Positions 25,550 to 54,877 of a stretch of DNA of 64,000 bases are shown piece by piece (positions within the stretch are counted from its first letter, which is position 1; each line of letters opens with the position of its first letter). Under the pieces are notes generated by a model. The model made no database searches. It saw nothing but the letters and a program-made list of their open reading frames with translations, and was not told the origin of the DNA. This DNA comes from Paraburkholderia sp. Tr-20389 (lineage in GTDB: Bacteria > Pseudomonadota > Gammaproteobacteria > Burkholderiales > Burkholderiaceae). Location of the stretch: contig NZ_JAAGPD010000006.1 in the NCBI RefSeq assembly GCF_017104565.1, positions 186,001 to 250,000 of the forward strand. Direction: 5' to 3'. A program made the position numbers and the translations under genes.

Positions 25550-25594
25550 GGCAATGACGCGTGGCCCGAGGTTCGACGCGAGGTTTGAGGAAAA

Positions 25595-25624: not shown

Positions 25625-25680
25625 AAAAATACTTCCAGCCCGGTAATCTGGTCACAGTCGCATCAAACCTTTTACCCCAC

Positions 25681-27069: not shown

Positions 27070-27107
27070 ACGCCAACCTATTCGCTTTCCTGAACGGAAC
27101 ACACATC

Positions 27108-28400: not shown

Positions 28401-28403
28401 CTC

Positions 28404-35661: not shown

Positions 35662-35942
35662 GATTGCCGCTGCAGATTACCAATGGCCACGCGATCGCGA
35701 GAAATCACGGCGTCGCCGCGCTACGTTTTGTCATCTCGATCCGAGACAAGATTGATCACCGTTTCGGCCGACATGCTCCCATCGGCTATCTGCCGGGTTT
35801 TGAGGTGAACAGATCTTTGGACTGATGGCGTCCGGCGTTGCGAGAAAGGCAACTATTGGCGATTTGTCGCCTCGCAGAGAGAAATCGCGGCCACGTCGAT
35901 ATCGAGGAAGAAAGCCCTTGGCCAAAGCGTGTCGTTGGCTAA

Positions 35943-36857
35943 GCGACCGTTTCAAAAAGACCCCGAGGGGGCTGTTAACCTTATCGCCAAGCTGTTAACC
36001 TTGGTCGTCTGAACAACCGGAACCACGGGGATGGGCGCACCGATCATTGATGACGAACTATGGGCATTGATAGAGCCTTTGCTGCCACCGGCAAAACCCA
36101 CGCCGCAAGAAATACCCAGGACGGCTCCCGGTTTCCAACCGGGCTGCACTGAACGGCTTCCTGTTCGTATTCAAGACCGGAATACGCTGGTGCAACCTCT
36201 CGACCAAGCTGGGATTCGGCTCCGGGCCAACCTGCTGGAGGCGTTTGCGCGATTGGCAAAGGGCCGGCGTGTGGAGCGCGTTGCACGAACTGCTGCTTGC
36301 GAAGTTACGCGAAGCCGGCGAACTCGATTTCTCACGGGCAGCGACCGATTCATCCTCGGTGCGAGCCGTTGGGGCGGGCGAAAAACTGGCCCGAACCCCA
36401 CCGATCGCTCGCGACCAGGTTCGAAGCATCACATCCTCGTCGACGCCAATGGCGTCCCCATCAGTGCCATCCTGACTGGCGCGAATCGCAACGACGTTAC
36501 CCAGTTGCTGCCGCTCATCGACGCGGTCCCGCCACTTCGCGGCGTACGCGGCCGACCGCTTCGCACGCCCAAAGTCATCTACGCAGATCGTGGCTATGAC
36601 TCCGAGCCGCATCGTCAGCGGCTTCGTGCGCGCGGTATCGAACCGGTGATTGCCAGGCGCCGCACGGAACACGGCAGCGGACTCGGCAAGTCCCGTTGGG
36701 TGGTCGAACGTACTCACGCAGGCTGCACAATTTTCGCCGTCTTCGCATTCGCTTTGAGCGTCGAGCCGACATTCACGAGGCATTCCTTAAACTCGGCTGT
36801 GCGCTCGTCTGCTGGAACATCTTCAGACGTACCGAGCAGTCTTTTTGAAACGGTCTC
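35943..36857 (+). mobile_element. IS5-family insertion sequence (IS427-like), copy 1
   Basis: A 915-bp element with terminal inverted repeats: left GCGACCGTTTCAAAAAGAC, right end GTCTTTTTGAAACGGTCTC. A 3-base target duplication TAA flanks it (35940-35942 and 36858-36860). It carries one transposase gene that needs three frame changes to read through. A copy differing at only a few bases lies at 53786-54700 in the same orientation. It interrupts a small minus-strand ORF. Confidence 0.85.
36031..36848 (+). pseudogene. IS5/IS427-type transposase with three frame changes (copy 1)
   Basis: Reading begins MGAPIIDDELWALIEPLLPP. After AKP, an extra C moves the true frame to the next one, which reads NRAALNGFLFVFKTGIRWCN and CWRRLRDWQRAGVWSALHEL up to SSSVRAVGAGEK. 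At an A5 run (near 36380) the frame returns to the first and reads GSKHHILVDANGVPIS, YADRGYD and 'GKSRWVVERTHA'. A missing base then shifts the tail 'LHNFRRLRIRFERRADIHEA' to its TGA at 36846. The DDE residues are in DSS, ADRGYD and VVERTHA. The A5 shift could be programmed -1 frameshifting, but the other two look like mutations, so the enzyme is probably inactive. Confidence 0.75.
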
Positions 36858-37172
36858 TAAAAACAGCGGAGTCGCGAGACACGCAAACCACAGCGAACAC
36901 TGCAACGCGGTATCAAGCGGACCGGAAACACCCGTGAGTCCCAATACGATCAATACGCAGAACCCGGCAGAGCCGAGCGCGTGCCTGTCAATCAAGGCCT
37001 CGAACCTGCTGGAATTCGCAGCGGTAAGCGCTGACGGTTCGATCTCCGCCTCTCGACAGCTTTGAGTGTATCCACTGACAGCCCGGGCCTGCAACTCACT
37101 GTCTTTGGTGTTATCCGGCCCGTCGACCCTTGCGATCCGTGGATGTCTCATATCTATATCGAGTTCTGTTAT

Positions 37173-39537: not shown

Positions 39538-40047
39538 GTGAGCGTGTTGCATGATCCGGACACAGGCTGGATGCCGAATGAAATGGTGTCCATGTTCCAT
39601 TCTCCGGATCTTCCAACATGTCAGAAACATCAGGTGACGAAGTCAGCGCGCCTCGCCGCACTCACCGCGTGTATTCACTGGAGCCAGCAGCAGATCGTGC
39701 CGGAGACGCTGCAGCCTGGAAGCTCTGTATCCGCCATCGCGCGTAAACATGGCATCAACGACAATATCATGTTCGAGTGGCCCCGGCAGCATCGCCTTGG
39801 CAGGCTGGGCTTGCCGGCATCGACGAGTCCGCCGTCGCAGTGCAGCCAACTGCTGCCGGTCCACGTCATCGATTCACTCGTGCAGTTGCCTGCGGAGCGT
39901 GCGATGCCGCCTGAGCCCACAGAGGACGGGCAAGGCATGAAGCCGTCAGGGTGTGAAGTCGAGATCGAGGTTGGCAAACGCCGCGTGCGCATTCGTGGCC
40001 TGTCGATGGAGCGTGCCGAGCAGTTCCTGCGCGATTGCCTGCGATGA
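39538..40047 (+). pseudogene. IS66-family TnpA, N-terminally frameshifted
   Basis: The later part is a typical IS66 first protein: QPGSSVSAIARKHGINDNIM (helix-turn-helix) and KRRVRIRGLSMERAEQFLRD at the end. The usual start (RTHRVYSLE-type) is present around 39660-39690 but in a neighbouring frame, so a frameshift separates the ends; the current first 40 residues are foreign. The stop overlaps the next gene's ATG (ATGA at 40044-40047). Function as an accessory transposition protein is probably lost. Confidence 0.7.
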
Positions 40048-40640
40048 TCGGCCTGCCGACGGGCACACGCATCTGGATTGCCGCCGGCGTGACCGACATG
40101 CGCTGCAGCTTCCAGGGCTTGGCCGCAAAGGTCCAGTCGGTCCTTGAGGACAATCCGTTCGGTGGCGATGTGTTTGTGTTTCGGGGCCGTCGAGGTGACA
40201 CAGTCAAGATTCTCTGGGCCATGGCTGACGGGCTCTGCGTATTCAGCAAGCGACTCAAGAGCGTGCACTTTGTCTGGCCTGAGGCCGACAGCGGCAAGAT
40301 CCATCTGACGCAGGCCCAACTGTCGATGCTTCTCGAAGGCATCAACTGGAAGCAACCTTCCCGAACGCGCACGCCACTGTCGATGTTGTAAACCGCGCGG
40401 GAGGTGCGTAAACTCCCGCGCATGTCTGATACGCCGCCGCTTCCTGACGACATCGATGCCTTGAAGGCGATGCTTGCCGAGCGGGACCTCGTTATCGAGC
40501 AACTCAAGGCGATCTCCGGCGAATCGTATCGACTGAAGGAAAAGCGGCAAGCGGGTGTGATTAATCGTATTCCGCCCGCGCAAATCGAGGCAGACGACCT
40601 CAAACGAAAACGAAATCCAAAGGAGCCAACCACCCGCCTT
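39640..40640 (+). mobile_element. Truncated IS66-family element
   Basis: The order TnpA, TnpB, start of TnpC is that of IS66. The large transposase gene TnpC is cut after about 28 codons, so roughly 1.4 kb of the usual element is missing. The exact ends could not be found; the borders given are approximate. Confidence 0.65.
40044..40391 (+). CDS. tnpB: IS66-family TnpB (Orf2)
   Basis: A 115-residue protein of the IS66 Orf2 type, intact: MIGLPTGTRIWIAAGVTDMR, 'DVFVFRGRRGDTVKILWAMA' and 'VHFVWPEADSGKIHLTQAQL'. The start at 40044 overlaps the TnpA stop (ATGA), which suggests coupling. TnpB is an accessory factor needed by some IS66 elements; with TnpC truncated it is probably without use. The residues match family consensus well. 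Confidence 0.88.
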   Translation: MIGLPTGTRIWIAAGVTDMRCSFQGLAAKVQSVLEDNPFGGDVFVFRGRRGDTVKILWAMADGLCVFSKRLKSVHFVWPEADSGKIHLTQAQLSMLLEGINWKQPSRTRTPLSML

Positions 40641-40652: not shown

Positions 40653-40777
40653 CATTTGAAATCGGTGTATCAACTCATGATCGCGTTTGCGTCTGAGGCT
40701 GTATCAAGTTGAGATTGCGTTTGACAATAATTTCGACGTCCGACTCAACCAGTGCCTGCGGACGCCGCTACGAGCGA

Positions 40778-42031
40778 TCAGCCTTCTCGCTCGACAGTGA
40801 ACAATTCCCGGTTGATGAAGCCAGCCACTTTGCTTCGAATGTATGTGTGGTTTTGGTTCATATAAACCGCATAGCCAAGCCGGTCATCGGAATTGCGCAA
40901 TCCCTGAATAGTTCGAGGTAACCCGAAGGATTTCTGTCGAACGAACTCATTATCAAGGAGCGTAAACCCGCTCACATGGCCCGGTTCTTCTTCGGTAATG
41001 AAGCCGATGGCCGCAAACCCATTCCGAGTCGGCACCGCTTCGTCCCCGAGTGGTAGATTCATATTGGCACACACCATCATGCGAATCGGGTCATAGCCGC
41101 GAGCCAGCGTCATAAGTTCCGCAATCATGTCGCCACCCGGCCGTGGATTCACTTCGATAACGTGAAAGCGCCCGCCGTCAACCTTGAACTCGACGTGGGC
41201 AAACGTGCTGCGTAAATCGATCGCCGACATGACCGCGAGCAGGCCGCCCGAAATCTCCCTGTCCAGTTCTGCATCGAACTGATGAGGATAGATGTGGGCG
41301 AGTTCAACGCATCGAGGCGGTGGCGTAATGAATTTCTTCGTAATCCCCAGGATTCGCCACACGCCGCCGTTCGGATCCCAGACCATCTCGGCACTGAACT
41401 CGTCGCCACCGACATATTCTTCGACGATGAATTTCCGCGACGACGAATAGCCGCGACTGTTGACCGCTGGTAGCGCCAGAATGTCGCCCACGGCCTCTCG
41501 CATATCCGTGGCGCTGTAACACACACGCACCGCGACGCTACCGTTCTCGTCAACAGGCTTGACCACGCAGGGAAAGCCGAATGGCGGCTCATCGATCGCA
41601 GCCATGGCGTTCGCTTCGTTGAACACGATGTGACGCAGCTCATAGCGCGACCCGGAAAGTTTCTTGCGAAGCACGCTCTTGAATCGGCATGCCAGCAACG
41701 CTGGCACCGACGGATGCGCGTTATTCCCGAGGTACCGGTTGACGATCGAGGACTGCAGCACACGGAAATCATCGAACGCCAGGCACGCGACGATTTTTCG
41801 CTCCGATCCGTAAGCGAAATCGAGGATCTTTCCGATGTCGTAGGTATCCACCAACGCAACCTCGTCCGCCACATCGGTCGGATTGGTCACCGAGTTTCGA
41901 TACTCACCGACATCACGGCTCAGGAAGATGGTGTGATAGCCCATCTCCTTCAAATACTGGATGGCCGAGTACCCATACCCCGACAAATTTGACTCGAGAA
42001 TCAATACAGCGTCTTTCAATCTCAGCTCCAT
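40778..42031 (-). CDS. ATP-grasp ligase of the biosynthetic operon
   Basis: A 417-residue carboxylate-amine ligase. Residues 1-110 form a preATP-grasp Rossmann-like domain (AVLILESNLSGYGYSAIQYL). The ATP-grasp core has 'GFPCVVKPVDENGSVAVRVC' (Lys for phosphate), 'FIVEEYVGGDEFSAEMVW' and 'VEFKVDGGRFHVIEVNPRPG' with Mg-binding Glu and Asn. Such enzymes join an amino acid carboxylate to an amine through an acyl-phosphate. It is the last gene of the ten-gene operon, so it would form an amide or peptide bond late in the pathway. The substrate is unknown. Confidence 0.88.
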   Translation of the reverse strand: MELRLKDAVLILESNLSGYGYSAIQYLKEMGYHTIFLSRDVGEYRNSVTNPTDVADEVALVDTYDIGKILDFAYGSERKIVACLAFDDFRVLQSSIVNRYLGNNAHPSVPALLACRFKSVLRKKLSGSRYELRHIVFNEANAMAAIDEPPFGFPCVVKPVDENGSVAVRVCYSATDMREAVGDILALPAVNSRGYSSSRKFIVEEYVGGDEFSAEMVWDPNGGVWRILGITKKFITPPPRCVELAHIYPHQFDAELDREISGGLLAVMSAIDLRSTFAHVEFKVDGGRFHVIEVNPRPGGDMIAELMTLARGYDPIRMMVCANMNLPLGDEAVPTRNGFAAIGFITEEEPGHVSGFTLLDNEFVRQKSFGLPRTIQGLRNSDDRLGYAVYMNQNHTYIRSKVAGFINRELFTVEREG

Positions 42032-42073
42032 TTGAATGATCCATTCACGCGCGTAGGTCCAGGTTGTTGCTGA

Positions 42074-42766
42074 TCACGCCGCAGCCAACGCGTTCGCGTA
42101 CCGCTCGAGCTCCAGCAGGATGACTGGCTCGTGGTGGGCCGCATCGACCCAATCGCAATACGAAGCACGCGACAGCACAAAATCCAGATAACCGCCGATC
42201 AATGAATCCGTGATGTCGAGGTATGTCGACGCGCGTGACATCATCGGCAACACCATCGCATCGACGATCGAGTATTCGCCGAACAGGAACGGCCCACCGG
42301 ACGCTTCCAGCGCGATGTGCATGCCGCGCGTCAGGCGTTCCCACTCGTCCCCCACTGCCCCCGTCGGCCTCATGCGCTTGTCCATTCGTCTTGTGCACCA
42401 AAATGGGAAGGTTGAGCGGATTAATGCGAATTCGCTCTGCAGTTCGGTCGCGAGCGAGCGTGCGAATGCCCTCGTCGCCCGATCATGCGGCCAGAGCCGG
42501 CCATCGCAGTACTCTTGCGAGACATACTCGCAAATCGCAAGCGTTTCCCAAATGACGATCGATCCATCGTGAAGCACCGGAACGCGCGACGACGGATGGA
42601 CAAGCGCGGCCGCCTGCTTGAAGTCGTCGGTGAACTCGCGGGATCCCGGAATCGCCTCGAACGGGATCACGATTTCCTCGAACAGAACCGCCGCTTCACG
42701 CAACAGTGACCACGGACGCAGTGACCACGACGAATACTTCTTGGTACCGCAGTAAAGCTTCAACAT
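42074..42766 (-). CDS. Glutathione-S-transferase-like protein
   Basis: A 230-residue protein with a thioredoxin-like N-terminal domain (MLKLYCGTKKYSSWSLRPWS, 'SSRVPVLHDGSIVIWETLAI' with the cis-Pro and Glu/Thr glutathione site) and an all-helical C-terminal domain ('GPFLFGEYSIVDAMVLPMMS' with the N-capping motif). The Ser in SSWSLRPW could be the catalytic residue. In secondary metabolism such proteins conjugate, isomerise or detoxify reactive intermediates. Its start is only 6 bases after the upstream aspartoacylase-like gene stop, so it belongs to the operon. A role in handling a reactive N-N compound is speculation. Confidence 0.87.
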   Translation of the reverse strand: MLKLYCGTKKYSSWSLRPWSLLREAAVLFEEIVIPFEAIPGSREFTDDFKQAAALVHPSSRVPVLHDGSIVIWETLAICEYVSQEYCDGRLWPHDRATRAFARSLATELQSEFALIRSTFPFWCTRRMDKRMRPTGAVGDEWERLTRGMHIALEASGGPFLFGEYSIVDAMVLPMMSRASTYLDITDSLIGGYLDFVLSRASYCDWVDAAHHEPVILLELERYANALAAA

Positions 42767-42772
42767 TGCTGG

Positions 42773-43720
42773 TCACCTGTCCGCATCCACGCCAACGGCG
42801 CATACGACATCGCCTTTGTTGATCGCCAGCGTATTAACGAAAAACAGGACAATCCCCTCGTCCTTTGCGAGCGGAACGTAGCCGCCGTCGCACAGCAACG
42901 TGTCAAGTCGCCCGACCGCCGTCCCGCGGGACACCTTCATCCCGGGCTGAATCTGCGGATACCACAACCCGTCCAGCTCGGAGGTCAGCGTCCTGAGTGA
43001 TAGTTCTCGCGGTATCTGAGACGCCGGCATGGCTTCTCCGCACATGCCCAGATGGACCATGACTCGATGAATGCCATCCGTGAGTTGCTGCACGCAAGCG
43101 TCGTCGACGCTACCCGAATGCCCCGCCTCGACCAGGATTCCGGGCACATCGATCGAAGAGCTCGCACGGCAGCTGAACCCGTCGCGCGGCGCACCGACGA
43201 TGTAAGGCAAGCCAAACACCGCCGCGAGCACGCGACTTGCTTCGTTCCCCGCATCGAAGAACGTGAACGGCGTCAACGCTTCGCCAATGTCGCCGGAATG
43301 CACGTCGATATAGGCGTCGGATATCGATATCACCTTCGAGAACAGCGCGTGAGCCAGTCGATCGCTCGCGCTTCCATCGGGCGAGCCCGGAAACAACCGG
43401 TTGAGGTTCTTGCCATCGACAGGATTCTCGGACACGCTGCGCTTTTTGAACCCTGCCGTGTTCACGACAGGCATGACAATCAGCGTTCCGCTGCGCAATC
43501 GATCCGCGTCCCTAGACAGCCGGACCACCGCCTCGATACCGGTGTATTCGCTCGCATGGACGCCACCCGTGACGGTCAGAACCGGGCCAGGCACTTCCGA
43601 ACGAATCACAAAGAACGGGATAGGATGGCGCATGTCGTCATCGACGACGAAATAGCCTTTGCTCGTACGTCCGACCGGGAACTGATTCAGGTCGAACTCG
43701 TTGAAGTTGATAATCGTCAT
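42773..43720 (-). CDS. Aspartoacylase/succinylglutamate-desuccinylase-like hydrolase
   Basis: A 315-residue zinc hydrolase of the AstE/AspA (M14-like) family, started at ATG 43720 because of its GAGAGAA site; an ATG 24 bases upstream has none. Zinc ligands are in 'TVTGGVHASEYTGIEAVV' (HxxE) and 'DAYIDVHSGDIGEALTP' (His); 'DGKNLNRLFPGSPDGSASDR' holds the substrate-binding Arg/Asn, and 'PGILVEAGHSG' the catalytic Glu. It removes an acyl group from an amino acid or opens an amide. In the operon it could unmask a protected amino group or cut a precursor. Confidence 0.88.
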   Translation of the reverse strand: MTIINFNEFDLNQFPVGRTSKGYFVVDDDMRHPIPFFVIRSEVPGPVLTVTGGVHASEYTGIEAVVRLSRDADRLRSGTLIVMPVVNTAGFKKRSVSENPVDGKNLNRLFPGSPDGSASDRLAHALFSKVISISDAYIDVHSGDIGEALTPFTFFDAGNEASRVLAAVFGLPYIVGAPRDGFSCRASSSIDVPGILVEAGHSGSVDDACVQQLTDGIHRVMVHLGMCGEAMPASQIPRELSLRTLTSELDGLWYPQIQPGMKVSRGTAVGRLDTLLCDGGYVPLAKDEGIVLFFVNTLAINKGDVVCAVGVDADR

Positions 43721-43771
43721 GGTTCTCTCGAAATAATGGAACATCGATTCGATTCCCTAACACCGCGCCGC

Positions 43772-45013
43772 TCAAACCGTCTCAGGCCGCTCGGACGCTA
43801 CGTGGGCCTCTTTTCGACTTGTCACGGCGTGCAGCACGAGCACGAATAGGCAGATCATCGAAAGCACCGCGAACAGTCCAGTGCCGCCTAGGTACTGAAG
43901 AAGTCCGCCGCCAAGCAACGGCGCGACCGCGCTGCCGAGCGAGTACAGGTTGCCGGCACCGAAGTAGCTGCCGCGGAGGTCGTCGGGCGTCAAGCGATCG
44001 ATCTTCACGCTGAACGTCGGGAACACGATCAGTTCGCCGAGGCTCAACACGATCGTCGCCAGAACGAGTATCGACATCTGCTTTACGCCCGCTGTGGCGA
44101 AACCGACCTGCGCAGCGAACATGAGCGCCAGGCCTATCGTGAGCCTCAACTCGATCGAACGGGCTTCGAGCAATCTCAGCACCGGAAATTGCGCGATGGT
44201 CACTGTCGCAGCGTTCACGGCAATCAACCAGGCGACCAGGCGACGGCCGCCGTCCGGACTGGATCGAGCGATGTACTGGACCAACGTCGAATCAAAATTC
44301 GCGTAGACCAGCGCGACCAGCATGTTGCAGATCAACAGGGTTACAAAGGCGCGATGGCCGAGAATTCGTGCGCACGCATCGGAAAAGCTTCCCTGCTCGC
44401 CAGGGACCTGCGCTGCCTTGCGTGGTTCGAGCTGCCGCAGCAGGGCCCAAAGCACCGCGCCATAGACAAGATGAATCACCCCCACCGTCATGAAAGTCGT
44501 GAGCGGATTGGCGATCCCGGCAGTCACCCCGATGAGCGCCCCCGCGGCGACGCCAATGTTCAATGCGAAGTAGCGAAAATAGAGCGCGAACTCGCGATCA
44601 CCGGCATCGGTCACGCGATCCCCGATCAGCGCCTTGCAGCAGGCTTCCAGTTGAGCGCAACCCATGCTTACCACAAGAATCGACACCGAGTAGCCCGTCA
44701 ACGAATCGCTTGCGCTCATGAGCATGTAGCCGATCGCCGCCACCACCGTGCTGATGCTGATGACGGCTCTGCGCCCGTACCTGTCGGACAGATAACCCGC
44801 ATAAATGCCGCTGAATGCGCCGCACGCCGTTGCTACCGCCAGAAAGCCGCCCACCGCGATTGCCGGCAGGCCGAACTTTTCGAACAGCGTGATTGAAAAG
44901 AACGGCCAAGCCATGTAGTAGCCGCCCCGCGTCAGCAACGTGCCCAGCAACATCATGTGGATCTCGCGAGGAAGCCGGCGATATCGCGCCATTTGAAAGA
45001 TTCTCGTTTCCAT
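43772..45013 (-). CDS. MFS transporter, probable product exporter
   Basis: A 413-residue major facilitator with 12 predicted helices, started at ATG 45013 (GGGGATGGGAA upstream). The usual loop 2-3 motif is 'GIYAGYLSDRYGRRAVISIS', placing it in the drug-proton antiporter-like group. The gene lies inside the operon between the diaminobutyrate aminotransferase and the hydrolase genes. It probably exports the product or protects the producer from it, which is the common role of such genes in biosynthetic operons; an uptake role cannot be excluded. Confidence 0.9.
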   Translation of the reverse strand: METRIFQMARYRRLPREIHMMLLGTLLTRGGYYMAWPFFSITLFEKFGLPAIAVGGFLAVATACGAFSGIYAGYLSDRYGRRAVISISTVVAAIGYMLMSASDSLTGYSVSILVVSMGCAQLEACCKALIGDRVTDAGDREFALYFRYFALNIGVAAGALIGVTAGIANPLTTFMTVGVIHLVYGAVLWALLRQLEPRKAAQVPGEQGSFSDACARILGHRAFVTLLICNMLVALVYANFDSTLVQYIARSSPDGGRRLVAWLIAVNAATVTIAQFPVLRLLEARSIELRLTIGLALMFAAQVGFATAGVKQMSILVLATIVLSLGELIVFPTFSVKIDRLTPDDLRGSYFGAGNLYSLGSAVAPLLGGGLLQYLGGTGLFAVLSMICLFVLVLHAVTSRKEAHVASERPETV

Positions 45014-45096
45014 CAGGTATTCCCATCCCCCACAATCCTGCAGATGTCTGCCGGCCGCTACGGAACCGCGATCCGGAGCGGCCTGCGCGGCCTCGA

Positions 45097-46419
45097 CTAC
45101 AACGAAGCGATGCACTCGTCGATCAACTTGATCGTCCGCTCGAGCAACGTCGCAGGAATCGTCAACGGCGGCATGAGTTTCAGGACTTCGCCACGCGGCC
45201 CCGACATCTCCATCACCACCGCCCGATCAAACATCGCCGCGCGAACGCGCAGCGCATCTTCCGGCCGCGCGAATTCGATTCCCTGAAAGAGGCCGCGGCC
45301 CTTTTTCCGGACCAGCAACTTCGGATGCTTCTTCAGCACCGCCTCCAGTCCCAGATCCATGACCTGAATGTTGTCGTCGAGTTGCCCGAGAAAATGCGCG
45401 TCTTCCCAGTACGACAACGCGGCTCTCGCCGCCACGAACGCAAGGTTGTTGCCGCGGAACGTGCCGTTATGCTCGCCTGGCGCCCAGATGTCGTACTTAG
45501 GGGCGATGAGCACGATCGCCATTGGCAGCCCGTTCCCGCCGATCGACTTCGACAGGCAAATCACGTCCGGTTGAATTCCGAACCGCTCGAAACTGAAGAA
45601 CGTTCCGGTGCGACCACACCCTGCCTGAATATCGTCGATGATGAGCAACGCCCCCAACTCGGTGGCCAGCGCCTGCAGGCCGCGCAACCATGCCTCAGAC
45701 GCGACGTTCAGACCGCCTTCCCCCTGAACGGTCTCGACGATGAACGCGGCCGGCTTCGCATACCCAGAACTCGGATCGCCGAACAATTGGCGCGCGTAAG
45801 CGATTGAGTCGAAGTTCCCATCGATGTAACAGTCGAACGGCAAGCGCACCACATCGTTCAACGACACACCCGCGGCGGAGCGCTTGAAGTCGTTACCTGT
45901 GGCCGCCAGCGCGCCAAGCGAGACACCATGGAAGCCGTTGGTGAACGACGCGACCACCGTGCGCCCTGTCGCCTTGCGAGCCAGCTTCAATGCGGCCTCG
46001 ACAGCATTCGTGCCGGTCGGCCCGGTGAACTGGATGCGGTAGTCCATGCCGCGCGGACCGAGCACGATTCGCGCGAAATCGCGAAGGAACGCCACCTTGG
46101 CCGTCGTCGCGAGATCGAGTCCTTGGACGACCCCGTCGTTGAGCAGGTACTCGACCACCGCATCCTTGATGCGTGCATCGTTGTGCCCGTAGTTGACCGA
46201 CCCGGCGCCAGCCAGCAGGTCCACATAGGCGTTGCCTGCTTCGTCGTACAGCAGCGCCCCCTTCGCAGTCGAAAATACGGTCGGAAAGCCACGTGAGTAC
46301 GACCGGACATTCGACTCGATCCGCTCGACGGCGCTCATACCGCATTCATCGACGATGGCCCGGCTCGCTTCCTGTTCTGCAATGTAACCTTCCAGCTTTT
46401 CCTCGATATACATGGTCAC
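45097..46419 (-). CDS. Diaminobutyrate-2-oxoglutarate aminotransferase (EctB/DAT type)
   Basis: A 440-residue class III PLP aminotransferase closely following the EctB/Dat group: 'RSYSRGFPTVFSTAKGALLY', 'LAGAGSVNYGHNDARIKDAV', 'FTGPTGTNAVEAALKLARKA' and the Lys region 'VICLSKSIGGNGLPMAIVLI'. It makes L-2,4-diaminobutyrate from L-aspartate-4-semialdehyde with glutamate as amino donor. No ectA or ectC is nearby, so this is not ectoine synthesis. Lying directly after the FAD oxidase gene (18 bases), it can supply, and possibly recycle, the diaminobutyrate used for N-hydroxylation and N-N bond formation. Confidence 0.93.
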   Translation of the reverse strand: MTMYIEEKLEGYIAEQEASRAIVDECGMSAVERIESNVRSYSRGFPTVFSTAKGALLYDEAGNAYVDLLAGAGSVNYGHNDARIKDAVVEYLLNDGVVQGLDLATTAKVAFLRDFARIVLGPRGMDYRIQFTGPTGTNAVEAALKLARKATGRTVVASFTNGFHGVSLGALAATGNDFKRSAAGVSLNDVVRLPFDCYIDGNFDSIAYARQLFGDPSSGYAKPAAFIVETVQGEGGLNVASEAWLRGLQALATELGALLIIDDIQAGCGRTGTFFSFERFGIQPDVICLSKSIGGNGLPMAIVLIAPKYDIWAPGEHNGTFRGNNLAFVAARAALSYWEDAHFLGQLDDNIQVMDLGLEAVLKKHPKLLVRKKGRGLFQGIEFARPEDALRVRAAMFDRAVVMEMSGPRGEVLKLMPPLTIPATLLERTIKLIDECIASL

Positions 46420-46437
46420 TCCTGCAATTCGGTTGAT

Positions 46438-47757
46438 TTATTTGAGATCCTTACGATCTTCGGAACGATAATAGGCACCGATGAGCGGCATGAGCGATCG
46501 AGCAATCCGATAGCTGAGCGACGGGCGGATCGTGTCCGAAAAGAACGGGCAATGAGCCCGCTCTCCATCACCGATATAGCGAGCCAACGCGAACCCTGCC
46601 GACACCGAGGTCGGCACGCCGTGACCGCAATAGCCACCGGCGAACAGAACACGCTCACTGACATGGCCGATCCGTGGTGTTCGATCGCGCGTGAAGGCGA
46701 GGCGGCCGCCCCAGCATCGGGCGACGGTGGGGAGCTCTATAGCGTCGCCGAACAGCTCGCGCGCCGCCGCCGCCAGTTCGTTGCCGATGTCCGCGAAATC
46801 ACCGTATGACGCCAGTGATTTCCGTCCACCGAACAACAGCGTTCCATCCTCAAGAATCCGGAAGTAGTTCGAGTAATTGCTGATCGTGGAGGCCACTTTT
46901 CCCGTCGGAAGCAGACGCCTTCGAGTGTCTGGCGACAACGGCTCGGTCGCGACGATGAAGCTGCCCAACGGAACGGTGAAGTGTTGCGCCCCGATACCGA
47001 GGGATTCGCTGTATCCGTTGGTCGCAACCACGACGCACTGTGCGCGCACGACGCCGTGCTCGTGTGTCACTTCGACGTCCGACGACGACTCGCGCACCCG
47101 GATGACAGGCGCGTCCTCGTGAACGCTCGCCCCGTGCTTCAACGCGATTCGCGCCAACTCTCCCACCAGCTTGCGCGGGTTCAGACATGCGCTCGTCCTA
47201 TCCGAGATGGCTGCGACGAATCCCGTCGCGCCGATGTGTTCGCGCAGCGCGGCTCCATCCAGAAATTCGATCGGAAGACGAAACACGTCGTGCTGGATGT
47301 CGAAATTTCGCCTGAGACGTGCCGCATGACGCGCGGAGCACGCAAGCGACAATCGGCCGGATACCCGCCAATCAATGTCGAGACATTCCTCTTCGACGAG
47401 CTTCTGAATCGAGCTCACCGCGTTCAGGAACCATCGAAAATACCGCGCTCCTTCTTCGGCCCCGTAAGCCTCGAGTACGGACGACGCCGATGCGGACGGC
47501 CCGATCGTGCAGAAGCCGGCGTTCCGAGAACTTGCGCCGAAACCGATCTGGCGGGCCTCTAGCAACACAACGTCACGCCCGCTCTTCGCCAGCGCGTAGG
47601 CCGTCGCAAGACCGGTGAAACCGCCTCCGATGATCACTGTGTCGGCGACCGCCGGCACCGCCGGTGACATCGTCACGACGCGCGCGGGCCCCGCCCAGAC
47701 CGGTACGCCAAAGCCTAGGTCTGACCGCTCGGAAGCGGTGTGGCCGTTAGGCTTCAA
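46438..47757 (-). CDS. FAD-dependent amine oxidase (DAO family)
   Basis: A 439-residue DAO-fold flavoprotein. The FAD-binding dinucleotide motif is at about 40-65 (TVIIGGGFTGLATAYALAKS), followed by 'DVVLLEARQIGFGASSRNAG' (glutamylputrescine-oxidase-like) and a C-terminal FAD-contact motif 'RVLFAGGYCGHGVPTSVSAG'. Such enzymes oxidise a C-N bond to imine, then hydrolysis frees amine and aldehyde. In the s56-p1 hydrazine pathway a homologous enzyme cuts the N-N-linked intermediate to release a hydrazino acid. Its 5' end overlaps the N-hydroxylase gene by 11 bases, so the two are coupled. Confidence 0.9.
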   Translation of the reverse strand: MKPNGHTASERSDLGFGVPVWAGPARVVTMSPAVPAVADTVIIGGGFTGLATAYALAKSGRDVVLLEARQIGFGASSRNAGFCTIGPSASASSVLEAYGAEEGARYFRWFLNAVSSIQKLVEEECLDIDWRVSGRLSLACSARHAARLRRNFDIQHDVFRLPIEFLDGAALREHIGATGFVAAISDRTSACLNPRKLVGELARIALKHGASVHEDAPVIRVRESSSDVEVTHEHGVVRAQCVVVATNGYSESLGIGAQHFTVPLGSFIVATEPLSPDTRRRLLPTGKVASTISNYSNYFRILEDGTLLFGGRKSLASYGDFADIGNELAAAARELFGDAIELPTVARCWGGRLAFTRDRTPRIGHVSERVLFAGGYCGHGVPTSVSAGFALARYIGDGERAHCPFFSDTIRPSLSYRIARSLMPLIGAYYRSEDRKDLK

Positions 47758-49051
47758 TTGCTGCTCCCTCCACCGTCTTCAGGGACGCCCGCAGTGCCGA
47801 CGAGATTTCTACGGCGCGCAGAGACAGGATGCTGAACGAGCCCGCATCACCGAGCCCGTGCGAGGATTCGCACAGCCCGTTCACGAAGAACGGCGGCGTT
47901 CCGTCCACATCACGTGGCTGCAGTGAGTAGTTCCGGTTGATTTGCAAGCCTCCGTTCCGATCCGCTGCGAATGCGGCGCGAATGCCGGTCATCAGCGGAT
48001 GAATCGGTTCCTCGGCCAGACCTCGCCCGAAGTTCTTGAAGCCGGTGGCCAGAACCACGGCATCCACCTGCAGGGATTGCCTTGCGCCGGTAAGCCGCTC
48101 GAGTATCTCGATGCGATAGCGGTCGCCTTCACGCTCGCACGCCTCGACCTCGTGGCTGCGATGCATCCGGATAACCTCTTTGCCTTCGATCCTTTGCGCA
48201 TACAGCCTCAGATAGAGCTTATGGATCACGTCGCCGTCGGCGGACGAGTAGTTTGTCGCCTTGAGTTCTGCGTTGAGTATCCGTTTGCCCTCGTCGCTCG
48301 CGTTGTAGTAGTAGTCGACGAACTCAGGGAAATAGACCTCTTCGCTAAACGGACTCGTATCCTTGAGACGGAATGAGTAAGCGCGATGCACGGCGTGCAC
48401 CGTTGATGCGGGAAAGCGCGCGGCCAGATCGAGCACAAGCTCGGCAGCACTTTGGCTACCTCCGATCACCGCGATGGCTCCGCCAGCTTCGAGTCTGTCG
48501 GCTACCAGCGTAAGCGACTGCTCGTAACGAGTCAGATGAAAGACGTCCGGACCGGCCGCTGGCTCGAATACCTGCGGAATGTTCGGCGTACGCCCGGGTG
48601 CGAGCACGACGCTGCGCGCATACCACGTTGCATCGCAAGACTCGATGCGATAAAGGAGCTCACCCTTGACCGTTGTGAGGCTGATCGACTGCACATCCAC
48701 GCCGTACCGCACGTGCTGCGCAAAATGCCGGGCCACCCACACCACGTAGTCGGCATACTCGCGTCTTAACGGGAATGTGATTCCTAGGTTAAGAAAATCG
48801 AATAGCCGCTTGTGGACGTGGAGATAGTTCGTGAATGAATAGTAGCTACGCGGATTGGCCGGAGTGACCAGGTCGCGCAGCGGATGATTCTGGATGTCAG
48901 AGTCATCCAGCAGCATTTCTCGCTGCCAGCCAGGTGACTGATGCCGCTCTAGAAACACGTAACTGCCGTCAAATCCGCGCTCTTCGAGTGCAACGGCAAG
49001 CGCAATGTTGGCGGGTCCGAATCCGATGCCGACGAAATCCAGTACGTTCAT
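47747..49051 (-). CDS. Ornithine/lysine-type N-hydroxylase (SidA/PvdA/IucD family)
   Basis: A 434-residue flavin-dependent amine N-monooxygenase. It begins with FAD motif 'DFVGIGFGPANIALAVALEE', has the substrate/FAD region 'MLLDDSDIQNHPLRDLVTPA' and the NADPH motif 'GAIAVIGGSQSAAELVLDLA', and ends with 'VVLATGFKNFG' (ATG motif) and a long tail. ATG 49051 is taken as start; a GTG at 49060 is possible. These enzymes hydroxylate the terminal amine of ornithine, lysine or diamines. Here diaminobutyrate, made by the aminotransferase of the same operon, is a likely substrate. It lies 30 bases after the MetRS-like gene. Confidence 0.93.
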   Translation of the reverse strand: MNVLDFVGIGFGPANIALAVALEERGFDGSYVFLERHQSPGWQREMLLDDSDIQNHPLRDLVTPANPRSYYSFTNYLHVHKRLFDFLNLGITFPLRREYADYVVWVARHFAQHVRYGVDVQSISLTTVKGELLYRIESCDATWYARSVVLAPGRTPNIPQVFEPAAGPDVFHLTRYEQSLTLVADRLEAGGAIAVIGGSQSAAELVLDLAARFPASTVHAVHRAYSFRLKDTSPFSEEVYFPEFVDYYYNASDEGKRILNAELKATNYSSADGDVIHKLYLRLYAQRIEGKEVIRMHRSHEVEACEREGDRYRIEILERLTGARQSLQVDAVVLATGFKNFGRGLAEEPIHPLMTGIRAAFAADRNGGLQINRNYSLQPRDVDGTPPFFVNGLCESSHGLGDAGSFSILSLRAVEISSALRASLKTVEGAAIEA

Positions 49052-49081
49052 GTTTGTCACGATTTGTATACCTGTGCGGGA

Positions 49082-50662
49082 TTAGATCAAGGCAGCCATG
49101 GGCTTTGACAGAGACCAGGTGAGATCAGTAATCTCAGGTTGAACCTCCCAACCTGTGATACTCGGCATCTCCAGACGCACCCTGATGCCCGCCGCGCTTT
49201 CCGGCATGAGAGGAGCGAGAACCACTGGCAGCACGTTCGCGACCAGCCCGTAAACAAAGGCTACCTGCTGACGGCCGATCGACGGCACCACGTCGGAGAG
49301 ACAGTTCGATGCATAGATCAGTAGCGCACTGACGTGTTCAGCAATGCGCTGCGGGCTGAACTTCTCAACCGTATAAAACTGTTCGAAGCGGTCCAAAATC
49401 GACTGCAATTCAGTACGTTGTTCGGCCGTCACCTCGAGTCGGTCGCCTGGTCGTACGCCCGCACGTGCGGCCGCATCGATCAACTGCGCGTCGACCTTGC
49501 GCCACGGCGAGATCAATCGAGCGTCTAGAAGTTTGTCCATTCCCGCACGCGTAAAATTGACCTTCTGATGCTCGGGGTTGCTGAGTGCTAGGTAATATCG
49601 CACACGATCTTTCGGCACTTCAGCTAACAGATCACGGCCCCAGATAAGGTTGCGCTTGCTTGTCGAGAACTTGAAGTTCTCGAATTCATAGAACTCGTTT
49701 GTCACGATGAAGTCCGGTTGCCGCATTCGCCCGTCGGCAAACGACATTGCCAAGTGCACCAGCGCGAAAAAGAACGAGTTGTCGTAACCGAGAAACTGCA
49801 CGATGCGGGTGTCCGCGGTACGCTCCCAGTGCAATGAGCCGTCGTGACGTTTGCCTGCTGCGATCTCGGCTGCATGGATCAGCCCCGGCATCATTTCCGC
49901 CCACACGTTGAACACCTGTCCCTCGTGTCCCGGGATCTGTGCTGGAATCCCCCAATCCGAGACATATGTGACCGGATAGTCGGGCAGCGGGCGGGCGAGC
50001 AACTCGTCCACCAGTTGCAGCAAATGCGGCCGCCAGTGCTTCGACTTCTCCGAGAAGAACCGCGTGATTTCCTGACGATAGCGTTCCAACTCGAGTACGA
50101 ACAGCTTCACTTCGGAGCGAACGAGTCCGTGCTTTGGTGCGATCGCGTTACGAGGAAGCTTGAGGGTCGTGGCATCGTTCGGATGGCCACAGTTCTCGCA
50201 GATCGCGCCAGCAGTCTCGGCAAAGCACACAGCGCAATGTCCACGCAGGTAGGACTCGAATATCATTGAGCCGTCCACCGCATCCGTCCAGACGTGCTTG
50301 GTCTTCGACGTCAGCTTTCCGTGCTCGTAGAGCCGCTGGAAAAACTTCTGGACGAATGCGACGTGTTCAGCATCCGGGTTGTGAAATGTGTCTGCTTCGA
50401 TACCCGCCATTTCCAACGTTTCGCGAATCTTGTCGGCATAGTCATCGGCCAGCGCCATCGGCATCGCATTCATCTTTGCCGCCGTGGAAACGACATAGGT
50501 CTGGTTGTGATCCGAGTAAGAGACGTAAGCTGCCGTCTCGTTCTTCAGTCTTAGGTATCGCGTATAAATATCGGCACCGAGATACGGGCCGCAGATGTGA
50601 CCGACATGCAGGTCACCATTCGGGGTGGGGGGCGTCGCAGTGACGATTGTCGTTCTTGTCAT
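49082..50662 (-). CDS. Methionyl-tRNA-synthetase-like enzyme of an N-N bond-forming pathway
   Basis: A 526-residue class I synthetase-like protein. The HIGH-type motif is HVGHI at 19-23, the KMSKS-type motif is in 'FKFSTSKRNLIWGRDL' (about 332-347), and a zinc-knuckle with paired Cys is in 'CAVCFAETAGAICENCGHPN'. An anticodon-binding-like helical domain follows, but without a C-terminal tRNA-binding domain. Its place beside a cupin, an N-hydroxylase and a DAO-type oxidase matches the hydrazine synthetases of the s56-p1 type, in which a MetRS-like part activates an amino acid and loads it onto an N-hydroxylated amine without tRNA. A housekeeping MetRS role is unlikely here. A good GGAAG site lies before the ATG. 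Confidence 0.85.
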   Translation of the reverse strand: MTRTTIVTATPPTPNGDLHVGHICGPYLGADIYTRYLRLKNETAAYVSYSDHNQTYVVSTAAKMNAMPMALADDYADKIRETLEMAGIEADTFHNPDAEHVAFVQKFFQRLYEHGKLTSKTKHVWTDAVDGSMIFESYLRGHCAVCFAETAGAICENCGHPNDATTLKLPRNAIAPKHGLVRSEVKLFVLELERYRQEITRFFSEKSKHWRPHLLQLVDELLARPLPDYPVTYVSDWGIPAQIPGHEGQVFNVWAEMMPGLIHAAEIAAGKRHDGSLHWERTADTRIVQFLGYDNSFFFALVHLAMSFADGRMRQPDFIVTNEFYEFENFKFSTSKRNLIWGRDLLAEVPKDRVRYYLALSNPEHQKVNFTRAGMDKLLDARLISPWRKVDAQLIDAAARAGVRPGDRLEVTAEQRTELQSILDRFEQFYTVEKFSPQRIAEHVSALLIYASNCLSDVVPSIGRQQVAFVYGLVANVLPVVLAPLMPESAAGIRVRLEMPSITGWEVQPEITDLTWSLSKPMAALI

Positions 50663-50720
50663 CTTCCACTCTCGGATTTTTGCCTCTCTAACATATTTTT
50701 AGTAAGGTATCCAAACTTAG

Positions 50721-50731
50721 ATGATTATCAT
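50721..50731. promoter_or_regulatory. Possible Fur-box-like palindrome before the MetRS-like gene
   Basis: ATGATTATCAT on the plus strand (ATGATAATCAT on the minus) matches the core of the Fur consensus, with 12 of 19 bases in agreement overall. It lies in an AT-rich 91-base gap upstream of the MetRS-like gene start (50662), about 60 bases away, within what may be an internal promoter. Iron control is a guess. Confidence 0.35.
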
Positions 50732-50753
50732 AAAGTCGTATTCCTGTTGCCTT

Positions 50754-51095
50754 TCAGGCGGATGTTGGCGCTCCCCACCAGATGCAAAGCAGCTCAAGCG
50801 GCGTTGTCGACGAGACGTTTCTCAGCTTGTGAGTGCTGAAACGCGGCAGATAGATCATGTCGCCCTTCTCGACAGCGCATCGCTCACCCTCGACTTCCAT
50901 CTCACCGTTTCCCGACAAGATCAGGAACGTTTCTTCTTCGTCGTGATCGTGAGGAGTGGATGCCTGATCAGGAGCGATCGTCATCCATGCACCTCCCCAC
51001 GAGGGAGTAGTAACGCCATCCCACGGATACAGCCGACGGAAGTCCCCGCCGTATTCCGCTTTGACCACGTCAGTGCTGGCTTTCCGTACCTTCAT
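50754..51095 (-). CDS. Small cupin protein of the N-N bond-forming pathway
   Basis: A 113-residue single cupin, started at ATG 51095 because of its GAGGA site. Metal ligands: HDHDEEE (His 49, His 51 and Glu about 55) in motif 1, and 'YLPRFSTHKLRNV' with the third His in motif 2. In hydrazine synthetases of the s56-p1 type a zinc cupin domain is fused to the MetRS-like part and catalyses the rearrangement that makes the N-N bond. Here it is a separate gene directly before the MetRS-like gene. It follows the dioxygenase gene by 13 bases. Confidence 0.88.
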   Translation of the reverse strand: MKVRKASTDVVKAEYGGDFRRLYPWDGVTTPSWGGAWMTIAPDQASTPHDHDEEETFLILSGNGEMEVEGERCAVEKGDMIYLPRFSTHKLRNVSSTTPLELLCIWWGAPTSA

Positions 51096-51108
51096 TTGCG
51101 CGTCCTCG

Positions 51109-52089
51109 TTAGAAAGAATGATCGACCGAAGGGTTCGACAACAGACCCCAAACACTTATCAGGTCGTCGGCTCCAATCATCGACTCGTGACGCGTACCAT
51201 AGATTCGCTTCAGCCACCGCCACCCTGCAACTTCTCCACGGCCGTGAATGCAGCGATTGTTGTTGAAGATGAGCAATTCTCCGGGCTGCAGGACGATTCG
51301 GCGGCATGCAGTCTGTGCAAGCGCCTTGAGCTCGGCAATCGCCGCTTCCGCCCGCTTGTCTGTCGACTGCGTGAACACGGCCCAGCGGATTTCGTCGAAG
51401 CCGTCCACGCTTTTGATCACCGGCGAATTCGTCGCGAAAATCTTGTATTTGTTGAGGTTGAACGAATCAGCATGTCGAAAATCGAAGATGCTTTGGCGCA
51501 ATACGTTCAACGTTTCGGTCGGCAAGCTGCGTTTGATCTCGCCAATCGTCAGCAAATGTGTCGCGGTTTCGGAGTCGTTGTTGATACTCACGAGTGTGAG
51601 CACTTCAGGGCGCCCGACCCGGGGCAGAAAAGGATTGTCGACATGAAAGCCGAACTCGATTCGTCCCGCGTTCGATTGCGCGTTTTCCGACCCGGGAATG
51701 GGACATACATCATGCAGGATGGCACCGCCCTTCTCTTCCCGATATCCGAAATTTCGCAAACCGACATTTCCGGTCAGACCGGCGAGGATGGCCGAAGTAA
51801 ATGGCGTTTCGCTCGTCGCCCACTTCTCGGTCGGTTGGTCGACGGGAAGATTCCGCAGAATGAAAAATGGTTCATCCGTCTCGAATAGCTGATTCCTGAC
51901 GCGCTCGACAGGAATACCAGCCTCGCGTATCGCCGCAGCGAATCGCGTGTTCTTTCGATCGAATTCCAAGCGAACCTCCCGACTGATCGCCGCTCGCAGA
52001 CCATCGCGGCTTGAGTCGTTCAGCGTATATTCGTATTCGCTGGAGACATGACAAGTCTCAACTCGCTTTGCATCGATATCTTCTCTCAT
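51109..52089 (-). CDS. Fe(II)/2-oxoglutarate dioxygenase (TauD/clavaminate-synthase-like)
   Basis: A 326-residue enzyme from ATG 52089, chosen for its AGGGGA site. The iron-binding triad is visible: 'GRIEFGFHVDNPFLPRVGRP' (HxD) and a distal His in 'FNNNRCIHGRGEVAGWRWL', with the 2-oxoglutarate-binding Arg in 'RWLKRIYG'. The family includes free-amino-acid beta- or gamma-hydroxylases (asparagine oxygenase, VioC). It is the first gene of the biosynthetic operon, so it may hydroxylate an amino acid precursor or the finished scaffold. The substrate is unknown. Confidence 0.88.
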   Translation of the reverse strand: MREDIDAKRVETCHVSSEYEYTLNDSSRDGLRAAISREVRLEFDRKNTRFAAAIREAGIPVERVRNQLFETDEPFFILRNLPVDQPTEKWATSETPFTSAILAGLTGNVGLRNFGYREEKGGAILHDVCPIPGSENAQSNAGRIEFGFHVDNPFLPRVGRPEVLTLVSINNDSETATHLLTIGEIKRSLPTETLNVLRQSIFDFRHADSFNLNKYKIFATNSPVIKSVDGFDEIRWAVFTQSTDKRAEAAIAELKALAQTACRRIVLQPGELLIFNNNRCIHGRGEVAGWRWLKRIYGTRHESMIGADDLISVWGLLSNPSVDHSF

Positions 52090-52146
52090 GCGGTCCCCTA
52101 AAAAAATAAGCAACGCTTCTTTAGCATTCTTTGCGTTGCGGGTGTG

Positions 52147-53543: not shown

Positions 53544-53785
53544 TTAATCGGCTTTTGCAGCCGCCAACGCTTCATCGCCCACCCTGCGCGGAATCAGATG
53601 GAAGTGCACGTGGTGTATTTTCTGTCCGGCAATAGACCCATTATTCGACCCTAAGTTGAATCCGCCGACTGTCGTATCTTCTGCGATGATGGCGTCGCGC
53701 ATCCGCCGCCCAGGTTCGAACATCGCCGCCAGCTCGACGGGAGCAAGATCAAATGTATCGCAGACGTGCCGCCTTGGAAGATTAA
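53544..53785 (-). pseudogene. HIT-family hydrolase, 5'-truncated by the insertion sequence
   Basis: The minus-strand frame has PRRHVCDTFDLAPVELAAMF, then 'GGFNLGSNNGSIAGQKIHHV' and the histidine triad in 'IHHVHFHLIPRRVGDEALAA' (HxHxH). HIT proteins hydrolyse nucleotide phosphoramidates such as AMP-lysine. About the first third is missing, and the frame runs into the left end of insertion-sequence copy 2. Removing the element joins it to 'NNCAALLNLPRRHVCDTF', but the sequence further upstream does not look like a HIT N-terminus, so the gene was damaged beyond the IS insertion too. Confidence 0.75.
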
Positions 53786-54700
53786 GAGACCGCTTCAAAA
53801 AGACCCCGAGGGGGCTGTTAACCTTATCGCCAAGCTGTTAACCTTGGTCGTCTGAACAACCGGAACCACGGGGATGGGCGCACCGATCATTGATGACGAA
53901 CTATGGGCATTGATAGAGCCTTTGCTGCCACCGGCAAAACCCACGCCGCAAGAAATACCCAGGACGGCTCCCGGTTTCCAACCGGGCTGCACTGAACGGC
54001 TTCCTGTTCGTATTCAAGACCGGAATACGCTGGTGCAACCTCTCGACCAAGCTGGGATTCGGCTCCGGGCCAACCTGCTGGAGGCGTTTGCGCGATTGGC
54101 AAAGGGCCGGCGTGTGGAGCGCGTTGCACGAACTGCTGCTTGCGAAGTTACGCGAAGCCGGCGAACTCGATTTCTCACGGGCAGCGACCGATTCATCCTC
54201 GGTGCGAGCCGTTGGGGCGGGCGAAAAACTGGCCCGAACCCCACCGATCGCTCGCGACCAGGTTCGAAGCATCACATCCTCGTCGACGCCAATGGCGTCC
54301 CCATCAGTGCCATCCTGACTGGCGCGAATCGCAACGACGTTACCCAGTTGCTGCCGCTCATCGACGCGGTCCCGCCACTTCGCGGCGTACGCGGCCGACC
54401 GCTTCGCACGCCCAAAGTCATCTACGCAGATCGTGGCTATGACTCCGAGCCGCATCGTCAGCGGCTTCGTGCGCGCGGTATCGAACCGGTGATTGCCAGG
54501 CGCCGCACGGAACACGGCAGCGGACTCGGCAAGTCCCGTTGGGTGGTCGAACGTACTCACGCAGGCTGCACAATTTTCGCCGTCTTCGCATTCGCTTTGA
54601 GCGTCGAGCCGACATTCACGAGGCATTCCTTAAACTCGGTTGTGCGCTCGTCTGCTGGAACATCTTCAGACGTACCGAGCAGTCTTTTTGAAACGGTCTC
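53786..54700 (+). mobile_element. IS5-family insertion sequence (IS427-like), copy 2
   Basis: A 915-bp element almost identical to copy 1 at 35943-36857 (few base changes, e.g. GAGACCGCTTC at the left end and one C-to-T inside the gene). Right end GTCTTTTTGAAACGGTCTC. A TAA duplication flanks it (53783-53785 and 54701-54703). It has the same orientation as copy 1. It truncates a HIT-family gene. Confidence 0.85.
53874..54691 (+). pseudogene. IS5/IS427-type transposase with three frame changes (copy 2)
   Basis: This copy carries exactly the same three frame changes as copy 1: an extra C after AKP, the -1 shift at the A5 run and a missing base after THA. One base difference (GCT to GTT) changes a late residue in the apparent frame. 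Because both copies share the damage, they descend from an already damaged copy or were moved by an active transposase elsewhere, unless the A5 shift is programmed. Confidence 0.75.
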
Positions 54701-54877
54701 TAAGTAACGCGGCGCAGTTATTGGATCGGCGATGACAAGCGGCGCGTATCCGGCCCGGCAATGCGTTTTTTCTTCGTGGGGACTGAAATGTCCGCCGGGA
54801 CCGGATCGTGCGCATAGCTATGCCCGCAGGAGTTGCACGGGCAAGCCATGCGCACATGGTGCGCAAAAGCGCTCTAA

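Follow-up and report, generated by a model that had tools for sequence, protein, structure and literature searches.

What does a bacterium gain from a second, altered methionyl-tRNA synthetase (MetRS) encoded beside a cupin and an amine-oxidizing enzyme, and which amino acids would such a set consume? The question is raised by a 64,000-nucleotide stretch of Paraburkholderia sp. Tr-20389 (contig NZ_JAAGPD010000006.1, positions 186,001 to 250,000), hereafter the window, in which ten minus-strand genes occupy positions 40778..52089. The initial annotation proposed an enzyme set that forms N-N bonds (hydrazines) in a Burkholderiaceae genome, and comparisons of the MetRS-like protein, the cupin and the flavin N-hydroxylase with related proteins support this proposal. 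The ten genes constitute a rare, intact operon that very probably serves to join two amino acids through an N-N bond. Few enzymes are known to make N-N bonds under mild conditions, and the characterised products of MetRS/cupin systems covered in one review are mostly from actinomycetes (PMC11705231).

The operon and its products

The list of open reading frames contains the ten minus-strand frames where they had been reported. In operon order, and with the block common to a second genome, they are:

51109..52089, minus strand: 2-oxoglutarate/Fe(II) dioxygenase of the free-amino-acid beta-hydroxylase type (AsnO/VioC/clavaminate synthase kin; TauD 4.4e-9)
50754..51095, minus strand: cupin of the zinc type, predicted to form the N-N bond as one half of a hydrazine synthetase (Cupin_2 2.5e-18)
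49082..50662, minus strand: MetRS-like protein, predicted amino acid activating half of a hydrazine synthetase (tRNA-synt_1g)
47747..49060, minus strand: flavin N-hydroxylase, predicted 2,4-diaminobutyrate N4-hydroxylase (Lys_Orn_oxgnase, PF13434, 1e-91)
46438..47757, minus strand: DAO-superfamily FAD amine oxidase, AmaA-like (DAO 8.8e-60)
45097..46419, minus strand: EctB-type L-2,4-diaminobutyrate:2-oxoglutarate aminotransferase (TIGR02407 ectB, 584.6 bits, cut-off 552.2)
43772..45013, minus strand: predicted MFS exporter (MFS_1 5e-35)
42773..43744, minus strand: AspA/DoeB-like zinc amidohydrolase (AstE_AspA_cat 1.9e-25)
42074..42766, minus strand: GST-like protein (GST_N_2 1.5e-9)
40778..42031, minus strand: predicted ATP-grasp amino acid ligase (ATP-grasp_4 2.6e-25)
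40761..52109, no strand: block common to the window and Burkholderia sp. WSM2232, 77% DNA identity (blastn)

Pfam and NCBIfam assignments agree with the family first named for each of the ten proteins. The first five products of the operon carry, in order, TauD dioxygenase, Cupin_2, tRNA-synt_1g, Lys_Orn_oxgnase and DAO domains, and the other five carry Aminotran_3, MFS_1, the AstE/AspA catalytic domain, GST_N and ATP-grasp_4; as had been noted, domain assignment places neither a nonribosomal peptide synthetase (NRPS) nor a polyketide synthase among them. The start codons adopted here are the ATG at 52089 for the dioxygenase and, for the MFS gene, position 45013, the start present in WSM2232. 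Successive genes are separated by 13, 91, 21, -11, 18, 83, 27, 6 and 42 bases, the range of -11 to 91 given previously, and this close spacing suggests that the ten genes form one transcript. A pattern scan for sigma-70-like promoters was uninformative, returning 0 sites against a shuffled mean of 5.1.

The MetRS-like protein and cupin as a predicted hydrazine synthetase

The MetRS-like protein has intact HxGH and KFSTS motifs (HIGH and KMSKS-like), and the genome also has a separate housekeeping MetRS. The paralog falls apart from housekeeping MetRS in two trees, and its best structural match in a fold search is the MetRS domain of PyrN. The fold search named the entry 9L8V, and no mention of the PDB identifiers 9L8V and 9VQ4 was found in the literature searched. 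Identity as a housekeeping or resistance-type MetRS is rejected on a score of 211 bits against a cut-off of 336, on both trees, which include no resistance-type MetRS by name, and on the fold ranking. The first tree comprises the window protein, 44 of the 95 loci with a MetRS-like match (a total of 93 plus L141 and L142) and ten over-cut-off MetRS, with nine of the 12 whole over-cut-off matches from other genomes represented (L123, L126 and L127, which gave no tblastn match to the window protein, were omitted); here the long branch of the Burkholderia arboris locus L142 lies next to the housekeeping enzymes, with support of 80. The second tree omits eight of 55 rows as long or near-duplicate (L142, L120, L008, L009, L083, L025, L072 and L105), and in it, with the root not inferred, the housekeeping enzymes attach at a point separating two subgroups of paralogs.

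The cupin, in its 113-residue form, keeps its metal ligands and the essential Glu in the motif H49-x-H51-x3-E55-x33-H89. The steps of 2, 4 and 34 residues equal those of PyrN (50/52/56/90) and RHS1 (63/65/69/103), a match of the kind that the initial annotation required of the active site. Motifs of the same kind are common among other cupins too; the motif was examined in 40 of the approximately 89 loci that have a cupin match. The AlphaFold model of the cupin (pLDDT 94.1) has plu4264 and a Salinispora arenicola cupin as its best fold matches, and function is not identifiable from the cupin fold alone. The gene for the flavin N-hydroxylase (PF13434, 1e-91) directly adjoins that for the MetRS-like protein. 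Sequence, tree and modelled fold together show the enzyme families and place the MetRS/cupin pair with hydrazine synthetases.

In the alignment, D51 of the MetRS-like protein lies opposite V in PyrN, a Glu-using enzyme. The alignment hints at a second amino acid other than Glu, but because the role of D51 as an amino-group contact is assumed, the hint is not built upon here.

Diaminobutyrate as the predicted hydroxylated amino acid

EctB enzymes make L-2,4-diaminobutyrate (DABA). The aminotransferase of the operon scores above the EctB cut-off, so that a DABA supply is linked to the N-hydroxylase; its SK motif lies at residues 290-291, and K291 is presumably the cofactor lysine. A tree of 91 N-hydroxylases places the window protein in a clade of 18 (SH-aLRT 99), in which an EctB-type gene (>150 bits) lies within 10 kb of ten members, as compared with two of the 73 proteins outside the clade. 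Two of these ten are the window and its WSM2232 ortholog. The EctB label requires 3 changes on the tree, whereas shuffled labels need 11.4 on average and none of 500 shuffles is as low, and a Fisher test gives p 3.7e-7, a descriptive value only, as related loci are counted as independent. This quick tree, with long branches, comprises the window and 90 of the 98 loci, the remainder having no N-hydroxylase piece of 330 residues. A search of 398 genomes of the phylum with the N-hydroxylase gave, at 1e-90, a sole other match, in the genome here called G1144, where an EctB gene directly adjoins it. The linked genes thus argue strongly that DABA is the substrate hydroxylated.

Precedents exist for a hydroxylated DABA in this chemistry. 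In actinopyridazinone (apy) biosynthesis N4-hydroxy-DABA arises via Apy11 and is coupled with alanine by Apy9, and in the por system Por11 accepts N4-hydroxy-DABA with glycine (PMC11705231).

The same N-N machinery could instead act on N6-hydroxylysine or N5-hydroxyornithine, with the DABA from EctB put to another use, either to serve as partner amino acid or to supply a block added by the ATP-grasp enzyme. The nearest N-hydroxylase in the PDB is 5cqf, deposited as a lysine 6-monooxygenase (265 bits), followed by the ornithine 5-monooxygenase 3s5w (230 bits), and seven actinomycete members of the clade are without EctB. Other hydroxylamines are also substrates of Apy9 and Por11, and Por9, an N-hydroxylase, is described as ornithine-type (PMC11705231). 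Yet EctB is linked to the N-hydroxylase also at loci in which neither a MetRS-like gene nor a cupin was found, and DABA is therefore tied to the hydroxylation step itself, which leaves hydroxylation of lysine or ornithine unlikely.

An alternative that would dispense with the N-N bond altogether holds that the MetRS-like protein is a peptide ligase or a tRNA-charging enzyme and the cupin an unrelated oxygenase. Such was the original 2010 prediction for the class (PMC2922099), but N-N bond formation was later shown for PyrN, RHS1 and others, in the case of PyrN without tRNA (PMC8664883). The window cupin retains the essential Glu and metal ligands, and we consider this alternative very improbable. 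Least probable is an ectoine-like or siderophore-like pathway, with EctB for a compatible solute and the N-hydroxylase for a hydroxamate. In its favor, EctB exceeds its equivalog cut-off, and N-hydroxylases of this family are known chiefly from siderophores. Against it, domain assignment identified no EctA, EctC, hydroxamate acyltransferase or NRPS among the products of the operon, and such a pathway would leave the MetRS paralog and catalytic cupin without a function. A search of the genome for ectoine synthase (PF06339) gave no match, but the 14 control genomes were silent as well, and because of those controls this negative is not used as proof.

The DAO-type oxidase

DAO-type genes are present in 70 of the 99 stretches fetched for comparison (WSM2232 is included twice, as L010 and L013), and membership in the superfamily is thus not discriminating. 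The window protein scores 170 bits as the pipecolate oxidase AmaA, below the cut-off of 600, and matches only its own ortholog, the B. arboris locus L142 (108 bits) and two loci of Acidobacteria metagenome-assembled genomes (69 and 64 bits). Searches with eight DAO proteins of other hydrazine loci, Spb39 not among them, failed to find its WSM2232 ortholog at 1e-8. The description of this gene as the DAO-type oxidase of the known hydrazine set is therefore correct at the level of the superfamily only. Genome G1144 has a DAO gene (67 bits) beside its EctB and N-hydroxylase genes but no cupin match, and its nearby MetRS is a housekeeping enzyme, 66% identical to an over-cut-off MetRS.

Tailoring and export proteins

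The structural kin of the dioxygenase are mostly free-amino-acid enzymes (AsnO, VioC, lysine 3-hydroxylase and clavaminate synthase), and its NCBIfam matches to GntD, VioC and Cs1 are far under their cut-offs. Its metal-ligand motif is H157-V-D159 with H290, numbered from the TTG at 52113. The AspA-like hydrolase, with residues H63xxE66, H149 and E206, has as its PDB kin the aspartoacylase-type 3cdx (77.5 bits) and then the N-acetyl-diaminobutyrate deacetylase DoeB (6twl and 6twm, 71.6 and 71.3 bits); its DoeB score of 73 bits is far under the cut-off of 403, and the likeness may provide a second, weak link to DABA chemistry. The best PDB match of the ATP-grasp protein is the L-amino acid ligase BL00235 (42 bits), and the GST-like protein has GST kin in the PDB with a best score of 47 bits.

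Proposed pathway

In the proposed pathway, the EctB-type enzyme would convert aspartate semialdehyde to DABA, which the flavin N-hydroxylase would convert to N4-hydroxy-DABA. The MetRS-like protein would adenylate a second amino acid and move it, without tRNA, onto the hydroxylamine oxygen, and the zinc cupin would rearrange the resulting unstable ester to a hydrazine linking both amino acids. The DAO-type oxidase may then oxidize a C-N bond of the hydrazine and so cleave it to a hydrazino acid or hydrazone, the product being 2-amino-4-hydrazinobutyrate if the cut is made as by Apy10. Thereafter the 2-oxoglutarate dioxygenase may hydroxylate a beta carbon, the ATP-grasp enzyme may form an amide or hydrazide, and the DoeB-like hydrolase may remove an N-acyl group, before export of the product by the MFS protein. 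The identity of the second amino acid, the oxidative cleavage and the tailoring steps are guesses.

Several observations weigh against this pathway. The MetRS-like protein shares only 24-27% identity with PyrN and with the corresponding protein of R. jostii, and in the second MetRS tree the latter is a long branch placed in the other paralog subgroup. RHS1 (5uqp) ranks 43rd in the cupin fold search with a root-mean-square deviation of 14.8 and is not favored over other cupins, a low rank that we conjecturally ascribe to a peculiarity of the chain in that entry. In the N-hydroxylase clade, eight of the 18 members (seven actinomycete loci and Leisingera) are without EctB within 10 kb, and the EctB count is biased because five of the 18 loci had been fetched by their likeness to the window N-hydroxylase; when these five and one likewise fetched PvdA outgroup are subtracted, EctB accompanies 6 of 13 members as against 2 of 72 proteins outside. 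Pairs of EctB and N-hydroxylase genes also occur without a MetRS-like gene or cupin in the fetched stretches of Mycetohabitans (L106), Agrobacterium vitis VAR03-1 (L109) and G1144 (L146), and thus the pair by itself is no proof of a hydrazine; possibly such pairs represent another use of N-hydroxy-diaminobutyrate. Lastly, the oxidation step is weak because the DAO of the window did not match those encoded at the other loci in the comparison.

With these points weighed, we consider it likely that the operon is self-contained and makes a small, N-N bonded amino-acid metabolite by the steps given. A more detailed version is speculative and, taken as a whole, rather doubtful. In it, aspartate semialdehyde would be converted by a new, dedicated pathway, with DABA and 2-amino-4-hydrazinobutyrate as intermediates, to an N-N amino acid that is beta-hydroxylated and may be cyclic (a pyrazoline- or pyrazole-carboxylate, or an aminopyridazinone) and that the ATP-grasp enzyme would cap to a dipeptide-like, NRPS-free product. 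The DAO subfamily would have been recruited independently of the type present at other hydrazine loci, a deacylase of the ectoine-degradation type would carry out a protecting-group step, and the genes would move as an 11.3 kb cassette between Burkholderiaceae genomes.

Distribution and genomic context

Burkholderia sp. WSM2232 carries all ten genes in identical order, and the arrangement is therefore far from chance. WSM2232 alone has all ten among the loci compared, for which a scan of GTDB species supplied the best 80 of 408 loci confirmed from 593 pattern matches read. The MetRS-like protein (E <= 1e-60) was found in two genomes out of 145 in the genus, one of them that of the window, and in three of 398 genomes of the family, namely the window's own, WSM2232 and one with a 33% identical paralog; the ATP-grasp protein, at 1e-40, was found in one of 369 genomes of the class, again the window's own. 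The ten proteins are 78-85% identical between the window and WSM2232, blastn homology with a 60 kb stretch of WSM2232 is confined to 40761-52109 of the window, and Nei-Gojobori estimates for the ten genes give dN/dS of 0.069-0.120 with dS of 1.02-1.38. Protein identity, bounded DNA homology and low dN/dS together indicate a conserved block in different surroundings in the two genomes, which is probably functional.

Two 921-bp copies of an insertion sequence (DDE_Tnp_1), at 35940-36860 and 53783-54703 on the plus strand, flank the operon as direct repeats with 3 mismatches about 17.8 kb apart, and a search of the same genome, in which 40 of 75 candidates were scored, found no further copy; the arrangement may be that of a composite transposon. 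Genes of the IS66 type (HTH_Tnp_1 and TnpB_IS66; 39538-40391, plus strand) end about 390 bases beyond the 3' end of the operon. Elsewhere in the window (24644-29558), a LysR regulator on the minus strand is followed on the plus strand by an M20 peptidase, an MFS transporter and a class V aminotransferase with a kynureninase-like C-terminus, apparently another metabolic gene group.

Other MetRS/cupin loci

WSM2232 has a second, distinct locus with MetRS-like, cupin and N-hydroxylase genes (L011), whose sister in the MetRS tree is an NRPS-linked locus on Sinorhizobium meliloti pSmeSM11b. Loci of the same three genes are found on plasmids of Pantoea, Deinococcus ficus and Klebsiella variicola (L005, L007, L008 and L009). 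In L005, L007 and L009 genes for a FAD oxidase, an ATP-grasp protein and a substrate-binding protein are annotated alongside; the Klebsiella stretch stops at the edge of its record, and the Pantoea agglomerans locus L005 has a stop inside the N-hydroxylase frame. The MetRS-like proteins of Xenorhabdus pXT29 (L105, 3524-4984) and Vibrio halioticoli (L107, 1673-3091) have DFSTS for KFSTS, and their linked cupins are without the usual HxHx3E register; the two loci represent a divergent subtype. Streptomyces griseofuscus (L075, 9612-19589) has a cupin, MetRS, DAO and an N-hydroxylase of the window's clade, as well as, by eye only, an apparent aspartate decarboxylase and a two-subunit 2-oxoacid:ferredoxin oxidoreductase. 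The B. arboris plasmid pla_2 (L142, 3326-10948) encodes an RHS1-like cupin (54%), a MetRS-like protein and an N-hydroxylase, with two different DAO-type genes, one of which resembles that of the window.

Comparison with known systems

The operon is compact, apparently self-sufficient for DABA, free of megasynthases and intact in two divergent genomes, and for these reasons expression of the whole operon and identification of its product are feasible. A testable rule is also proposed: where a MetRS/cupin locus has an EctB gene next to its N-hydroxylase gene, the hydrazine is expected to derive from DABA.

Operons of this class, in which MetRS paralogs occur with a cupin and a lysine N6-monooxygenase, were predicted by Aravind et al. 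in 2010, with ATP-grasp proteins, diaminobutyrate transaminases and 2-oxoglutarate dioxygenases as variable partners; a dipeptide product was proposed there, and the ten-gene set of the window was not found in the accessible part of the text (PMC2922099). As in PyrN, Spb40, Tri28 and the R. jostii pair of RHS1 and MetRS, the window has an HxGH/KFSTS MetRS-like protein, an HxHx3E-x33-H zinc cupin and a linked N-hydroxylase, the cupin and MetRS-like protein being encoded by separate genes, as in R. jostii. Unlike the synthetases of these four systems, that of the window is accompanied by an N-hydroxylase of the EctB-linked clade. The s56-p1-type set named in the initial annotation, taken whole, is not supported; that label was dropped because the DAO does not match those of other loci and because EctB points to DABA and not lysine as the substrate.

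Similar in predicted chemistry are the apy (Apy9/10/11) and Pseudomonas orientalis por systems, in which N4-hydroxy-DABA (apy), or N4-hydroxy-DABA or N5-hydroxyornithine (por), is coupled to an amino acid, apy having a Spb39-family FAD oxidase (PMC11705231); a DABA-amino acid coupling is predicted likewise for the window. By comparison with the descriptions of apy and por in that text, the window appears to differ in its own EctB gene, 2-oxoglutarate dioxygenase, DoeB-like hydrolase, GST-like protein and ATP-grasp enzyme. The A. vitis CG118 locus (L032) has the order cupin-MetRS-NMO-EctB (NMO being the N-hydroxylase) as in the window set, at 41-53% identity, and the Xenorhabdus sp. pXT29 locus L105 has an N-hydroxylase and EctB 51% and 52% identical to those of the window. 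Neither has a match (E 1e-5) to the window's DAO, 2-oxoglutarate dioxygenase, AspA-like, GST-like or ATP-grasp proteins, and the DAO-type gene of L105 belongs to a different subfamily, scoring 63 bits with the L084 query. No report of a DABA/EctB hydrazine-synthetase operon from Burkholderia or Paraburkholderia turned up among the titles and abstract beginnings searched, a search mostly outside the subscription literature. DABA-derived hydrazines, and chemistry of this kind, are already known (PMC11705231); what appears new, in the sources searched, is the ten-gene combination with its own predicted DABA supply and unusual DAO, present in two genomes.

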